From the NCBI RefSeq assembly GCF_036967205.1, contig NZ_CP146022.1, forward strand, positions 5,394,001 to 5,458,000: 64,000 nucleotides of DNA, in the 5' to 3' direction. This DNA is from Streptomyces sp. Q6 (GTDB lineage: Bacteria > Actinomycetota > Actinomycetes > Streptomycetales > Streptomycetaceae). The notes under the pieces were generated by a model. The model worked only from the letters and a program-made list of their open reading frames with translations, was not told the DNA's origin and did no database searches. Within the stretch, counting starts at the first letter, position 1. Each line of letters begins with the position of its first letter. This document shows positions 2,105 through 59,579 of this stretch, one piece after another. A program made the position numbers and the translations under genes.

Positions 2105-3687
2105 ATGACGACCCGCATCCTCCCGGCCATCGGGGAACCGGAGGGCGCCCGCGCCCTGGTCACCCTGCTCTCCCAGCTGCCCGACACCGAACCGGCGCCA
2201 CCGGTCGCCGACTCCACCGTGCTCCTCGACACCCTGGCCCGGCTGGCCGCCGAGTCCCTCGACGAGCTGCCCGAGGTCGTCCTCGTCCATGAACGCATCG
2301 GCCCCGTACCGGCGTTGGACCTGATCCGCGACCTCGTCCTGCGCTTCCCCGCGGTCGGCGTCGTCCTCGTCACGGCCGACACCAGCCCGGCCCTGCTCAC
2401 GGCCGCGATGGACAGCGGGGCCCGCGGTATCGTCGCGTTCCCGCTCGGCTACGACGCCCTCGCCGAGCGCGTGCACGCCGCCGCGTCCTGGTCCGCCGGA
2501 ATGCGCCGCCACCTCGCGGGCACCGCCGGCGCGGAACTGATGCCGGCGGGCGGCGGCGGCCGCGTCGTCGCGGTCACCGGCGCGAAGGGCGGCGTCGGCA
2601 CGACCCTGTGCGCGGTCCAGCTCGCCCTCGCCGCGCGGGCGTCGGGCAGGTCCGTGGCCCTGCTGGACCTCGACCTCCAGTCCGGGGACGTGGCCTCGTA
2701 CCTCGACGTGCAGTTCCGCCGCTCCGTCGCCGACCTCTCCGCGATCCGCGACATCACCCCGCGCGTCCTCCAGGACGCCGTCTTCACCCACGAGACCGGC
2801 ATCGACCTCCTCCTCGCGCCCGCCGACGGCGAGCGCGGCGAGGAGGTCACCGACCGCGTCGCCCGCCAGGTCGTCCAGTCGCTGCGCGCCCGCTACGAGG
2901 TCGTGGTCATCGACTGCGGTACGCAGATGGGCGCGGCGAACGCGGCGGCGATCGAACTCGCGGACCAGACGGCCCTGTTGGTCACCCCGGACGTCGTCGC
3001 GGTCCGCGCGGCGAAGCGCATGGTCCGCCTCTGGGACCGGCTCCAGATCCGCAAGGCCGAGGAGACCCTCACGGTCGTCAACCGGCACGCCCGCACGTCC
3101 GAGATCCAGCCCTCCCTGGTGGAGAAGGTCACCGGCACGAAGACGGCGGGCACCTCGATCCCGGCCGCGTACAAGGAACTCCAGGCCGCGGTCGACGCGG
3201 GCCGCATGCAGGATCTCGACAACCGCTCCACCGTCAAGCAGGCCCTGTGGACCCTGGCCGCCGAGCTCGGCCTGGTCGCCCCCGCCGCACCCGAGGCGGG
3301 CGGCCGCCGCGCCCGCCGCCGCGGCGACAAGGGAGCGGTCACGCTCGAGTTCGCGGCGATGTTCCCGCTGGTCCTCGTCGTCCTGGCACTGATGTGGCAG
3401 TGCGTCCTGTACGGCTACACGTACTCCTCGCGGGGAACGCGGCGGACGAGGCGGCGCGGGCCGCGACCTCGGCGGCCGCCGGGGGCGGGGATGCGGGCGG
3501 GGCCTGCGACACGGCGGGCATGTCGCACCTGCCGGCCGCCTGGCAGGGCGCGGAGATCTCCTGCGCGGACGACGGGGTCGTCGTGAAGGCCACGGTCACG
3601 GTCGACGTCCCCCTCTTCTTCCCGGGGGTGAACCCGGGCTGGAGCGTCACGGGCGAGGCCGGGGCGGCGACGGAGACGACACCGTGA
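2105..3687 (+). CDS. cpaE: CpaE/TadZ-like ATPase fused to a TadE-like segment; frameshifted near 3426
   Basis: The first 130 residues form a receiver-like domain without obvious phosphorylation chemistry. A MinD/ParA-type ATPase follows, with the deviant Walker A motif KGGVGTT near residue 161. After about residue 405 the same frame runs without stop or new start into a TadE-like unit (GAVTLEFAAMFPLVLVV, one membrane helix). At 3425-3430 the frame breaks: the expected SLAGNAADEA continues only in the next frame and runs to the stop at 3685-3687. Restoring one C in the CC run gives a product of about 527 residues. As written, the frame ends at 3586 with an Arg-rich tail. I remember fused ATPase-TadE proteins from other streptomycetes, so the fusion looks genuine and the shift secondary. 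The ATPase family positions Tad machines in the cell. Confidence 0.85.
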
Positions 3688-4180
3688 CCGCACGTCCAGG
3701 TGCCGGGGCGGAGCGACCCCGCCAGGCGCGCGGGGCCGTATCGACCAGCGGCTCCGCCGAAGGGCGCGACCGGCCACGACGGACCCCGCACGCGCCGGCA
3801 CCGGAGCCACCCCCGACGGCGAGGAGGCGGCTGCGCGGCGACCACGGCGTCTCCATGCTGGAGTTCGCCGGCTTCCTCCCCTTCCTCCTGATCATCGGCA
3901 TGGCCGCGATCCAGCTCGGCCTGGTCGGCTACGGCGCCAGCCAGGCGGGCAGCGCGGCCGCGCGGCGGCACGGGCGGAATCCCTGAACCCCGGCACGGGC
4001 CAGACGGCCGCGTCCGGCGCGGCGAGCGCCTGGCTGAACCCCGCGGCGGCGATCGGCGCGGGCGACACGATCACCGCCGACGTCACCGTCCACGTCCCCG
4101 CGATCATCCCCCTCTTCGACGGCTGGGACATCCACCGCACCGCCACCATGCCGAACGACCAGTCCGACGAGGGGAGTTGA
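3684..4180 (+). pseudogene. tadE: Second TadE-like pilus protein, frameshifted near 3960
   Basis: The GTG start overlaps the TGA of the preceding gene (GTGA). A Pro/Arg-rich N terminus leads to GVSMLEFAGFLPFLLIIG, the TadE membrane helix with its conserved Glu. In the sequence as given the frame stops at 3986 after an atypical RRHGRNP. The family-typical continuation (ARAESLNPGTGQTAA and then VTVHVPAIIPLF) is in the next frame and ends at 4178-4180. Adding one C in the run near 3958-3962 would restore a 165-residue protein. TadE proteins are minor pseudopilins of the Tad pilus. The stop of the restored frame lies two bases before the tadA start. Confidence 0.75.
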
Positions 4181-4182
4181 CG

Positions 4183-5547
4183 ATGAGCCTGCGCAACCGC
4201 GTCGTGGCGACCCGCGAGACCACCGGAGGCGAACCGTCCCGCGACGACGGCCTCGTCGCCGTCTACCGGGCCAAGCTCCTGGAGGAGATCGACCTCGCGG
4301 AGATGTCCTCTCTCCAGGCCGCGGACCGCCGCGTCCGCCTGGAGCGCGTCCTCGGCCACATCATCAGCCGCGAGGGCCCGGTCCTCTCCTCGTCCGAGCG
4401 CGCGCAGCTGATCCGCCGCGTCGTCGACGAGGCCCTCGGCCTCGGCATCCTGGAGCCCCTCCTCGCGGACGCCTCCATCACCGAGATCATGGTCAACGGC
4501 CCCGACTCCATCTTCGTGGAGCGCTCGGGACGGGTCGAGCAGCTCCCCATCCGCTTCGCGTCGGCCGAGCAGCTCATGCAGACCATCGAGCGCATCGTCT
4601 CCACGGTGAACCGCCGCGTCGACGAGTCGAACCCCATGGTCGACGCCCGCCTCCCCACCGGCGAGCGCGTCAACGTGATCATCCCGCCGCTCGCCCTGAC
4701 GGGCGCGACCCTCACCATCCGCCGCTTCCCGCGCGCGTACAGCCTCACCGAACTCCTCGAACTCGGCTCGCTCGACGAGCACATGCTGATGCTGCTCGCG
4801 GCCTGCGTACGGGCCCGCTTCAACATCATCGTCAGCGGCGGCACCGGCTCGGGCAAGACGACCCTCCTCAACGCCCTCTCCGCGCTGATCCCGTCCCACG
4901 AGCGCATCATCACCATCGAGGACTCGGCGGAGCTCCAGCTCCAGCAGGACCACGTCATCCGCCTCGAATCACGGCCGGCGAACGTCGAGGGCAAGGGCCA
5001 GGTCACCATCCGCGACCTGGTCCGCAACAGCCTGCGCATGCGCCCCGACCGCATCATCGTCGGCGAGGTCCGCGGCGGCGAGACCCTCGACATGCTCCAG
5101 GCCATGTCGACCGGCCACGACGGCTCCCTCGCCACGGTCCACGCGAACACCGCCGAGGACGCCCTGACCCGCCTCCAGACCCTCGGCTCCATGTCCGAGG
5201 TCGACGTCCCCTTCGAGGCGCTGCGCGACCAGATCAACTCGGCCGTCGACGTCCTCGTGCAGCTCACCCGGCACGCCGACGGCTCCCGCCGGGTCAGCGA
5301 GATCGCGCTGCTCGTCTCGCACGGGCGCGAACAGTTCACGATCGCCACCGTGACCCGCTTCGTCTCCCAGCCGTACCTCTCCGGGGCCTCCGACCTCGAA
5401 CAGCGCCGGGTCCACGGCTACTACGAACACCTGCCGCTGCCGCGCCGCGTCGCCGACCGGCTGTACATCGCGGGGGAGGCGGTCCCGCCGGCGTTCGGCG
5501 TCGTCGAGTCCGTCGACGTACAGAACACGAGAGAGGCGACGGGATGA
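4183..5547 (+). CDS. tadA: TadA/CpaF secretion ATPase of the Flp pilus
   Basis: This 454-residue protein is the hexameric motor ATPase that powers pilin assembly at the cytoplasmic face of the membrane. It has the usual N-terminal helical domain and then the RecA-like core with Walker A GGTGSGKTT near residues 219-227. The Asp box IIT.IED, the Walker B-like RIIVGEVRGGE near 290, and a His box (STGHDGSLATVHAN) follow. ATG 4183 is chosen over a TTG two codons earlier because GAGGGGAG lies six bases before it. The stop overlaps the ATG of a tiny repeat ORF (ATGA), so translation is probably coupled onward. Confidence 0.93.
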   Translation: MSLRNRVVATRETTGGEPSRDDGLVAVYRAKLLEEIDLAEMSSLQAADRRVRLERVLGHIISREGPVLSSSERAQLIRRVVDEALGLGILEPLLADASITEIMVNGPDSIFVERSGRVEQLPIRFASAEQLMQTIERIVSTVNRRVDESNPMVDARLPTGERVNVIIPPLALTGATLTIRRFPRAYSLTELLELGSLDEHMLMLLAACVRARFNIIVSGGTGSGKTTLLNALSALIPSHERIITIEDSAELQLQQDHVIRLESRPANVEGKGQVTIRDLVRNSLRMRPDRIIVGEVRGGETLDMLQAMSTGHDGSLATVHANTAEDALTRLQTLGSMSEVDVPFEALRDQINSAVDVLVQLTRHADGSRRVSEIALLVSHGREQFTIATVTRFVSQPYLSGASDLEQRRVHGYYEHLPLPRRVADRLYIAGEAVPPAFGVVESVDVQNTREATG

Positions 5548-5677
5548 CACCCCGCACACTCCTGTCCGTCATGGAAGGCGACGGGATGACACCCCGCACA
5601 CTCCTGTCCGTCATGGAAGGCGACGGGATGACACCCCGCACACCCCTGTCCGCCACGGAAGGTGACGGGTCATGACG
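5536..5677 (+). repeat. Three 42-bp tandem repeats plus a partial fourth
   Basis: A 42-bp unit beginning GCGACGGGATGACACC starts at 5536, 5578 and 5620; a degenerate fourth copy begins at 5662 and merges into the tadB start. Copies one and two are identical; copy three differs at a few positions. Each unit holds its own ATGA and a purine-rich GGAAGG upstream of the next ATG. The unit looks like a duplicated intergenic start region of tadB. Confidence 0.95.
5544..5675 (+). CDS. 43-residue repeat peptide ORF between tadA and tadB
   Basis: The 42-bp repeats are in frame and open from an ATG at 5544 to a TGA at 5673-5675. They encode three copies of a 14-residue unit, MTPRTLLSVMEGDG, the last one slightly diverged. 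The ORF overlaps tadA by four bases at its start and tadB by four bases at its end (ATGA at both ends). This is the geometry of translational coupling. It may simply carry ribosomes from tadA to tadB, or be a repeat-expansion artefact of the junction. No family is recognised and expression as a stable peptide is unproven. Confidence 0.45.
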   Translation: MTPRTLLSVMEGDGMTPRTLLSVMEGDGMTPRTPLSATEGDGS

Positions 5678-6622
5678 AATCCCGCCCTCATCGCCCTCGG
5701 CGCGACCGTTCTGACCTGCGTGGTCGCGGTCGCGGCCGTCCACGCCCTCGCGTCGGGCCGCGCCCAGCGCCAAGCTCTCGTCGACCGGCTCGACGGCTAC
5801 CCGGCCGGCGGCTACGGCCCGGCGGGCGGCAGCCGCGCCCGCCGCTTCACCGGCGTCGACCGCCGGCTGCGCCGCACCCGCCTGGGCAAGGCCGTCCACC
5901 TCCGCCTCTCGGCGACCGGCCTCGACCTGACCGCGGGCGAGTTCTCGGTCTACGTGGCCGCGGTCGTCGCCGGTCTGTGGCTCCTCGCGGCGACGACGCT
6001 CGCCCCGTTCTTCGGCCCGATCGCGGGAGCGGTGGCGATCTGGGCGGCCGTCATCTTCCTCAACTGGCAACGCCAGAAGCGCATCGAGGCGTTCATCAAC
6101 CAACTCCCGGACGTGGCGCGGCTCCTGGCCAACGCGACGGCGGCGGGCCTCGCCCTGCGCACGTCCCTCGCGATGGCCGCAGAGGAGCTCGAAGCCCCCG
6201 CGGGCGAGGAACTCTCCCGCGTCTCCGACCGGCTGGCGCTCGGCCACTCCGTCGACGACGCCCTCGACGAACTCGCCGCCCGCCTCCCGTCCCGCGAACT
6301 CATCGTCCTCGTCACCACCCTGGTCCTGGCCAACAAGGCGGGCGGCACGGTCGTCTCCTCGCTGCGCAACCTCACCCAGACCCTGGAGGACCGCAAGGAG
6401 ACCCGCCGCGAGATCCGCACCATGCTCTCCGAGGTCAACGCGACGGCGTTCACGGTCCCGCTGCTCGGCCTGGGATCCCTGCTGCTGATCAACTCGTCGA
6501 ACGAGGGCGCGCTGGCCAAGGTGACAGGCTCGGGCCTCGGCCAGACCCTCATCCTGGTCTCCCTCGGCCTCTACGCCATCGGCTTCTTCGTGATCCGCCG
6601 CCTCGGCAAGATCGAGGTGTGA
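5672..6622 (+). CDS. tadB: TadB-type inner-membrane platform protein
   Basis: This 316-residue protein has an N-terminal membrane helix (about 5-28), a basic cytosolic loop, two close helices (about 92-130), the T2SSF/GspF-like domain (PDVARLLANATAAGLALR onward) and two C-terminal helices. TadB and TadC form the membrane platform on which the TadA ATPase acts. The ATG overlaps the stop of the small repeat ORF, and tadC begins two bases after its stop. Size and topology are normal for the family. Confidence 0.88.
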   Translation: MTNPALIALGATVLTCVVAVAAVHALASGRAQRQALVDRLDGYPAGGYGPAGGSRARRFTGVDRRLRRTRLGKAVHLRLSATGLDLTAGEFSVYVAAVVAGLWLLAATTLAPFFGPIAGAVAIWAAVIFLNWQRQKRIEAFINQLPDVARLLANATAAGLALRTSLAMAAEELEAPAGEELSRVSDRLALGHSVDDALDELAARLPSRELIVLVTTLVLANKAGGTVVSSLRNLTQTLEDRKETRREIRTMLSEVNATAFTVPLLGLGSLLLINSSNEGALAKVTGSGLGQTLILVSLGLYAIGFFVIRRLGKIEV

Positions 6623-6624
6623 GC

Positions 6625-7527
6625 ATGTCGACCACGCTCATCGGCCTCCTGCTCGCCGCTCTCTCCGGTCTCGCGGTCCTCGGCATCCTCACCGGCGTCC
6701 GCATGTACCGCGCCGACGCCAAGGTCCCCGACGACCTCGCCCTCGCCCTGGAGGTCGGCGCCACCCGCGTCTCGGCGACCGGCTCGGCCGTCGACCGCCT
6801 GGGCATGCGCTTCGCCCCCCTGGTCCTGCGCCTGATGGGCCCGCGCCGCGTCGACGCCAAGCGCCGCAGGATCGACATGGCGGGCAACCCCGGCGGCCTC
6901 ACCGTCGACCGTTACGCGGCCCGCCGCGCCGTCTACGGCGCCTTCGGCCTCGTCATGGGCCTGGTCTTCCTCACCAACGGCCAGCCGCTCTTCGCCCTGC
7001 TGACACTGGTCTTCGGAGCGGTCGCGGCGGACGCCCTCATCTGGCAGGCGGTCCGGGACCGCAAGGACGTCATCGACCGCACGCTCCCCGACTTCCTCGA
7101 CGTCCTCGCGGTCGTCGTCTCGGCCGGCCTCGGCTTCCGCCAGGCCCTCGACCGCGTCTCGGAGAAGTACGAGGGCCCCTGGGCGGACGAACTGCGCATC
7201 ACCCTGCGCCAGATGGACATGGGCGTCCCGCGCCGCCAGGCCTTCGACGAACTCCGTCGCCGCAACGCCTCCGAACAGGTCGCCCAGTTCGTCTCGGCCC
7301 TCCAGCAGGGCGAGGAGCTCGGCTCACCCATCGCCGACACCCTCATCCAGCTCGCCACGGACATGCGCCGCACCGACGCCCAGAACTCCCGCCGCCGCGC
7401 CGCGAAGACCATCCCCAAGGCCACCATGGTCACCCTGGTCTTCATGCTCCCGGCCACGATGATCCTGATCGCGACGGGCATGTTCCTCGGCTCGGGCTCG
7501 GACTTCGGCTCGATCCTGGGCCGCTGA
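6625..7527 (+). CDS. tadC: TadC-type inner-membrane platform protein
   Basis: The 300-residue product resembles TadB in layout: an N-terminal helix (about 4-25), two helices around 105-140, and the T2SSF domain with LPDFLDVLAVVVSAGLGF followed by EELGSPIADTL. A C-terminal helix (about 268-290) completes it. It is the partner platform subunit of TadB. The ATG follows the tadB stop by two bases (GTGTGAGCATG), so the two are probably translated together. Confidence 0.88.
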   Translation: MSTTLIGLLLAALSGLAVLGILTGVRMYRADAKVPDDLALALEVGATRVSATGSAVDRLGMRFAPLVLRLMGPRRVDAKRRRIDMAGNPGGLTVDRYAARRAVYGAFGLVMGLVFLTNGQPLFALLTLVFGAVAADALIWQAVRDRKDVIDRTLPDFLDVLAVVVSAGLGFRQALDRVSEKYEGPWADELRITLRQMDMGVPRRQAFDELRRRNASEQVAQFVSALQQGEELGSPIADTLIQLATDMRRTDAQNSRRRAAKTIPKATMVTLVFMLPATMILIATGMFLGSGSDFGSILGR

Positions 7528-58085: not shown

Positions 58086-59579
58086 ATGACACGTGCGACG
58101 AAGACGCTCGCCCTGACGGCGGGCGCGGCCTGCACCCTGTGCCTCGCCCTCTCCCTGCCGGGCACGGCCGGCGCCGGGACCCCCCTGGCCGTCAAGGACA
58201 CCCTCACCATCGGCAACCCCGTGGCGGGCAACAACGGCTTCGGGGTCGTGACCGAACAGAACGCGACCCTGGGCAGCACCGAGTCCGAGGGGCCGGTCGC
58301 GATCGGCGGCGACCTCCGCTTCGGCGACGGCTACAACGTGGCTCTCAACCACACCGGCGGCTACACCGCCCCCGGCGACTCCGAGCCCACCGCCCTCCTC
58401 GTCGGCGGAAGCGTCGACTACGCGGGCAGCAGCCCCACCGGAGTCCTGAAGGTCCTGCGCGACGCGTACGTGAAGATCGGCGACATGACCGGCAGCCAGG
58501 CTCTGAACCGGGACCAGAACGGCGCCATCGTGCACACCCACATCGACGCCACCGGCCGCTCCTACGACGCGACCCCGCGCATCGAGCTGACCACCACGCA
58601 ACCGGCGTCGTCCGTCGGCCCCGCGGACCTGATGGACTTCCCCGCGCTGTTCACCACCTACCGGGAACGCGCCCAGGAGATGGCCCGCTGCACGGACAAC
58701 GTCGTGCTCCGCGACGGCAACGGCACCCCGCTGGCCGACCAGGACACCGTGCCCGCGAACGCCAACCTCAAGGTCACCCTCACCGAGGGCATCACGAACG
58801 TCCTGCACATCACGGGCGCGAACCTGAACAACATCGGCGACCTGACGTTCACGAACCCGCCCACCGCGGACACCCCGTTCCTCGTCGTCGTCGACACCAC
58901 CGACGAGGGCGGCGACTTCACCTGGCACACCCCGACCCTCGCCGGGGCGGGCGGCGCCGCCGCGCCCTCCATGCTCTGGAACTTCCCCGACGCCACCTCC
59001 ATCACCGTCGCCGACGGCGACACCATCGAGGGCACGGTCTTCGCCCCGAGCGCCGACCTCACCGACCTCGACGCCTCCAACATGGAGGGCGACATCATCG
59101 TGAAGTCCCTGGTCGCCGGGCCGCTCGCGGCGGACGGGCGTACGGACGTGAACGCGGGGGAGATCCACTACTTCCCGTTCGCGGCGGACCTGTCGTGCGA
59201 GGGGATGGGCGCGAACGGATCCCCGACGCCGACGCCGACCCCCACTCCCTCGCCGACCGAGCCGACCTCGGCCCCCTCGCCCGGGACGCCGACCCCGACC
59301 CCCACTCCCTCGCCCACCGAGCCGACCTCGGCCCCCTCGCCCGGGACGCCGACGCCGTCGACGCCGTCGACGCCCTCGACACCCGCACCCTCGACGCCGA
59401 CCCCGACGGCCCCGGCCGTCGTCGTGCCGTCCACCCCGGCCCCGAGCCCCACGGGCCCCACCCTCGCGAACACCGGCGCCGGGCGCCATCTGCGCCTGCT
59501 CGGCGTGATCGCATCCGGCGCGGTCGGCGCGGGTGCCGGAGTCATGCTCTGGGCGGGCCGCAGGCGCCGGGCGCACTGA
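58086..59579 (+). CDS. Choice-of-anchor A family surface protein with LANTG sorting signal
   Basis: The 497-residue protein has a signal peptide (about 1-30) and a globular domain of about 340 residues of the choice-of-anchor A type: [29 protein letters not shown] in parts, [22 protein letters not shown] and [15 protein letters not shown] Pro/Thr/Ser tail of about 100 residues and then LANTG, a hydrophobic helix and RRRR end the protein. This is a cell-wall sorting signal of the class E sortase type (LAXTG), so it should be linked to peptidoglycan. Two Cys in the globular part may form a bond. Such proteins may be adhesins; the ligand is unknown. Confidence 0.85.
59221..59354 (+). repeat. 60-bp tandem duplication in the Pro-rich tail
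   Basis: Bases 59221-59280 and 59281-59340 are copies differing at a few positions, and a partial third follows. Each codes for 20 residues of the pattern [16 protein letters not shown]. Confidence 0.9.

Follow-up and report, generated by a model that had tools for sequence, protein, structure and literature searches.

The tadA-tadB junction of Streptomyces sp. Q6, which lies in the 64,000-nucleotide stretch of its genome analysed here (contig NZ_CP146022.1, positions 5,394,001 to 5,458,000; hereafter the window), is occupied by an open reading frame (ORF) of 43 codons at positions 5544-5675 of the forward (+) strand, built from three 42-bp units. This small ORF is probably an example of a relay that is hypervariable yet locked in frame, whereby ribosomes would be carried from tadA to tadB by termination-reinitiation and selection would act on the frame of the bridge rather than on its content. 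Our analysis bears out the anatomy described in the original prediction, namely three 42-bp units, a 43-codon ORF and an ATGA at either end (5544-5547 and 5672-5675), and the junction is not, as had been supposed, peculiar to this locus: a bridge ORF of 9 to 101 codons, running from a start on the tadA stop codon to an exact overlap with tadB, is present in 82 of 179 distinct Streptomyces junctions, the window included, a count that is no estimate of prevalence because the sample is enriched for near relatives.

According to the relay reading, ribosomes that end tadA would restart at the ATG within the first ATGA, read the bridge, terminate at the second ATGA and reinitiate on tadB, the last step being aided by a Shine-Dalgarno (SD) sequence within the final codons of the bridge; the bridge peptide itself need have no function. 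Bridges would be born and lengthened by local duplication and slippage of DNA rich in guanine and cytosine (GC), sometimes from the junction itself. Changes that leave the spacer untranslated, or that lead into the third frame, would be purged because they would break or disturb the translation of tadB, and whole-codon changes would be tolerated.

Frame conservation without sequence conservation

TadA was found in 195 of the 199 sampled genomes of the genus. The survey pooled 221 loci, among them 80 further stretches and 80 named loci, and each of the 221 matched both tadA and tadB. Loci that duplicated a junction already in the tally, or in which no stop of tadA was read, were removed (42 in all), which left the 179 distinct junctions. 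The genome collections hold one genome per species, and the best 80 named relatives by TadB are all Streptomyces except one titled 'Actinobacteria bacterium'. The overlap between bridge and tadB measures 4 nt in 75 of the 82 bridges and 1 nt in the remaining 7. When all mini-ORFs that open on the tadA stop codon, other than tadB itself, are considered together, 82 of 85 end in an exact overlap of 4 or 1 nt with tadB; the deviating mini-ORFs are found at L110, which overlaps tadB by 8 nt, at L111, which does so by 10 nt, and at L172 (S. mesophilus), where we read a chain of three mini-ORFs, joined through TGATG and ATGA and ending on the ATGA of tadB. At 26 of the 179 junctions the start on the tadA stop codon shares the frame of tadB and would serve as the start of tadB itself; the spacer is longer than 15 nt in five of these.

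The frame of the spacer can also be assessed without requiring that it be open. Junctions with a start on the tadA stop codon and a spacer longer than 15 nt fall into the bridging frame in 83 of 90 cases, into the tadB frame in 6 (the five N-terminal extensions and L172) and into the third frame in 1. No early stop interrupts the 83 bridging-frame junctions over 2275 codons, and the other two frames of the 82 bridges (2177 codons) contain 34 and 18 stops. On a quick tree built from the end of TadA together with TadB, which comprises 177 of the 179 rows (L005, a bridge, and L120, without overlap and with a run of N, were left out), parsimony requires at least 63 changes of bridge length among 81 of the 82 bridges and at least 25 changes of junction class. 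It is because the relatives keep the frame through dozens of length changes that the window ORF stands beyond chance, and the constraint would be exerted by selection on tadB output. The gap between tadB and tadC, taken as a control, is mostly shorter than 25 nt and is found in all three frames (49 of the first 50 bridge loci).

The content of the bridges is not conserved. The 82 bridges encode 77 distinct peptides of 37 distinct lengths, and P, T, A, R and S are the abundant residues in the first 50. Tandem repeats recur at 45 of the 91 junctions of all classes that are longer than 30 nt, 39 of these 45 having a period divisible by three. Genomes whose tadA ends in TAG (L158, L067, L184, L147 and L128) have tandem repeats at the corresponding position as well, and in the S. 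scabiei group (e.g. L158, L067 and L184) translation of these repeats would seem to extend the N terminus of TadB.

A family search beyond the genus added 27 loci that stand outside the 179 junctions; 7 of the 27 once more belong to the genus of the window. In these added loci tadA ends in TAG in 10 and in TAA in 1, a start on the tadA stop codon lies in the tadB frame in 15, and L233 carries a 51-codon mini-ORF.

The 42-bp array, its relatives and its surroundings

Tandem Repeats Finder places the array at 5534-5669 (+), with a period of 42 bp, 3.2 copies, a 95% match, no indels and a score of 244. The copies start at 5534, 5576 and 5618, and over the 52 nt of the reference, copy 2 is identical to copy 1 (100%) and copy 3 matches at 92%. 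The array thus begins inside the last codons of tadA, a small correction to the earlier description, and a motif from the end of tadA recurs within the spacer and also precedes tadB, an arrangement that fits birth by duplication of the junction. Four in-frame ATG codons lie inside the ORF, and an SD-like tetramer stands upstream of two of them, each following GGAAGGCGACGGG: that of copy 2 (5586-5588) and that of copy 3 (5628-5630). The third equivalent site is the SD sequence and start of tadB itself (GGAAGGTGACGGGTC-ATG), and the SD-like stretch that would serve tadB, GGAAGGTGA (5657-5665), lies within the end of the bridge ORF. The first ATGA joins the tadA stop to the start of the bridge, a geometry that recurs in relatives, and the second joins the bridge stop to the tadB start; both overlaps are of -4 nt, which is the geometry of a gene chain read by termination-reinitiation. 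The top-scoring tandem repeat of the window is a different one, a 60-bp unit at 59225-59357 (2.2 copies, 95% match, score 252).

That changes by whole units, in multiples of three, would keep the coupling geometry, as originally proposed, is supported by the other bridges across the genus, which behave alike. As for the count of units in related strains that had been suggested alongside, the 42-bp unit is not seen, by our reading, in the junctions of the seven nearest relatives by the tree. Bridges of 11 (L034), 10 (L144), 27 (L164), 13 (L145) and 29 codons (L004), all unrelated to that of the window, occupy five of these junctions, and in L003 and L192 tadA and tadB overlap directly.

The flanking genes, all on the + strand, are read from their Pfam families and gene order as the tadA, tadB and tadC genes of a Tad locus. 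The putative tadA, encoding a type II/IV secretion ATPase (4183-5547; Pfam T2SSE, E=1.5e-77), ends with a TGA at 5545-5547; tadB (5672-6622) matches Pfam T2SSF (E=1.1e-16) and tadC (6625-7527) matches Pfam DUF5936 and T2SSF. Upstream of tadA, a tadE-like gene (3684-4180, +) is split over two frames: the Pfam TadE match falls in an ORF at 3684-3986 and the remainder lies in another frame that ends with a TGA at 4178-4180. The sister L003 has this gene in a single frame, and the split may be either a real mutation or an assembly error.

Two further candidates for the junction were set aside. A structured regulatory RNA was rejected because the predicted fold of 5520-5700 is no more stable than those of shuffled sequences (z = -0.35; 73 of 200 shuffles as stable). 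A frameshift fusion of TadA, bridge and TadB was considered and dropped; the tadA tails differ among relatives, and no search was aimed at slippery sites. A simple scan of 5300-5900 returned no promoter-like or terminator-like sites.

Weighing the relay against other explanations

A frame kept open for this long could betray a genuine small protein that takes part in pilus assembly, and GC at the third codon position does exceed that at the first in 60 of 72 bridge cores (it falls below in 9 of the 72). Such a protein is nonetheless very improbable, since the bridges range from 9 to 101 codons and their peptides, nearly all distinct, differ widely among relatives; moreover, the bridge is missing in the close relatives L003 and L192, three of the four differences between copies 2 and 3 alter the amino acid by our reading, and a search of Pfam, the only family library used, gives no match to the 43-residue product at E<=0.001. 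Scarcely credible is the insertion at the ATGA of a mobile element akin to the mycobacterial interspersed repetitive units (MIRUs): the anatomy matches, in that an excerpt of PMC12548453 describes a repeated small ORF coupled at -4 nt to the next gene, but a search of the whole 8.95-Mb genome allowing up to 3 mismatches gives 3 matches for the unit, all within the array, its 22-mer has 0 exact matches in a genome contig collection that may omit records very near the genome of the window, the plasmid collection holds no DNA similar to the unit, and the bridges of other species differ in sequence. The array might instead act as a tuning device in which each unit adds a start and an SD-like site, unit number thereby setting tadB/tadC output relative to tadA. 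The two internal ATG codons of the window speak for such a device, as do comparable codons with SD-like sites in L070 (nine), L019 (two) and L054 (one); it is quite unlikely all the same, given that no more than 4 of the 41 bridges with at least 20 codons contain internal in-frame ATG codons preceded by an SD-like tetramer, that copy 3 has lost CATGG and that the unit is absent from view in all seven of the nearest relatives. In this strain, unit number may still have a private local effect.

An account that dispenses with coupling, in which tadB initiates de novo from its own SD sequence and the frame is kept only so that ribosomes restarting at the first ATGA avoid entering tadB out of frame, predicts much the same frame pattern and is also in keeping with the SD-like tetramer that precedes tadB in 77 of the 82 bridge loci, as compared with 484 of 4100 background positions (12%). 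Such a tetramer is present at the bridge start too, in 58 of the 82, so that translation may draw on ribosomes handed over as well as on fresh ones. However, initiation of this kind would tolerate bridges that stop well short of tadB, and none of the 83 bridging-frame junctions does so, the sole early stop among the 85 mini-ORFs (in L172) opening the next mini-ORF of a chain; we consider this account unlikely.

A number of observations weigh against the relay itself. Given the SD-like site before tadB in most bridge loci, de novo initiation could suffice. GC content by codon position is only partly coding-like in the bridge cores (0.62/0.75/0.82 in 72 loci, the values for tadB in 50 loci being 0.755/0.528/0.933). 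A start on the tadA stop codon is lacking at 68 of the 179 junctions, 61 of which end in TAG, and these junctions presumably function with no relay. Chance can account for single cases, because 136 mini-ORFs of 8-110 codons open at gene stops in 864 kb of the same genome, and for 22 of them the end coincides with the start of a coding-like ORF, a fraction (16%) that includes starts inside genes, two excisionase-like small genes (by our reading) and the case of the window itself. As regards the origin of the spacers, only 8 of 83 resemble the flanking tadA or tadB DNA significantly (p<0.01 in two tests per spacer against mononucleotide shuffles, where chance would give about 1.7), which indicates birth by junction duplication for a minority. 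Evidence of both kinds comes from L143, which carries, in comparison with L047, three copies of a 32-bp unit spanning the tadB start, with a 1-nt difference in the first copy, a single open ORF through all three copies and TTG at both extra tadB-like starts. The open ORF speaks for the relay, but the case is only suggestive and is not a clean instance of frame repair, since a chain of overlapping mini-ORFs could bridge the junction without the 1-nt change.

Other coupled junctions and comparison with known systems

A second example comes from the same genome, where a repeat-bearing bridge of 38 codons with an ATGA at both ends (L252:12746-12862, - strand) separates two ArsA-type ATPase genes. 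Among 30 loci of this pair, that of the window's genome included (the best 30 of the 59 genomes with a match), 9 have bridges, 17 a direct junction, 3 miss and 1 has none. Relay ORFs could, as a tentative generalization, form a recurrent class of content-free Streptomyces genes at several coupled junctions (tadA-tadB, the ArsA-type pair), in which spacers produced by duplication and slippage survive only as unbroken chains of overlapping ORFs and are selected on frame alone, so that their turnover would be a natural record of handover by continuous translation and not by scanning.

If the relay is true, a small ORF would have been kept through much of the genus, in the absence of any conserved sequence, only to hold two genes translationally joined. 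Its turnover would then provide an evolutionary test in the open argument between scanning and local reinitiation, and engineers would have in the bridges a ready stock of couplers, 9 to 101 codons long. Surveys of small proteins would likewise be cautioned that a frame that is kept open need not encode a functional peptide. No published account of bridge ORFs at tad junctions was found in a search conducted mainly by titles and abstract openings in largely open-access literature.

MIRUs are units dispersed over many positions of the genome. Their description reportedly goes back to Supply et al. in 1997. Judging from excerpts of the literature, to which the comparisons that follow are confined, these units are repetitive, apparently mobile and a possible natural case of short ORFs that merely deliver ribosomes (PMC12548453), and their copy number varies among strains (PMC3635867). 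Both the MIRUs and the junction studied here couple a small ORF to the following gene at -4 nt, and little cost to expression is expected (PMC12548453). What sets the two apart is that the unit of the window is unique in its genome, and that the bridges of other species have different sequences and seem to have arisen locally.

TadA and TadB are parts of one machine. Overlaps are described as enriched among subunits of complexes (PMC10666635), and the bridges have in common with termination-reinitiation at ATGA or TGATG (PMC10666635, PMC6728339) the overlaps of -4 and -1 nt; they differ in that tadA and tadB are not in contact, one small ORF (three in L172) lying between them. Reporter work is said to show that coupling depends on overlaps or quite small gaps: at a distance of about 20 nt hardly any was left, and, in a passage that apparently concerns E. 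coli, there was a drop of 40-80% at +14 nt and an almost complete loss at +38 nt (PMC10666635). An untranslated spacer of bridge size would therefore be expected to uncouple the two genes, and reading the spacer as a series of overlapping ORFs would get round this distance-dependent loss of reinitiation. The same source cites others who favour scanning across longer gaps (PMC10666635).

Another close parallel is with couplers of the upstream-ORF type, such as ORF-11, ORF-17 and ORF-18 of integrons (PMC8876359) and the axe-txe minigene (PMC8708949), in which translation of a short ORF aids the next gene. Amino acid changes in ORF-11 had only a slight effect (PMC8876359), and distance and frame matter for the axe-txe minigene (PMC8708949). 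ORF-11 and ORF-17, however, have a start region of their own and the axe-txe minigene sits in a leader (PMC8876359, PMC8708949), whereas the bridge would be entered from the stop codon of the upstream gene, and both its sequence and its length change from one species to the next.
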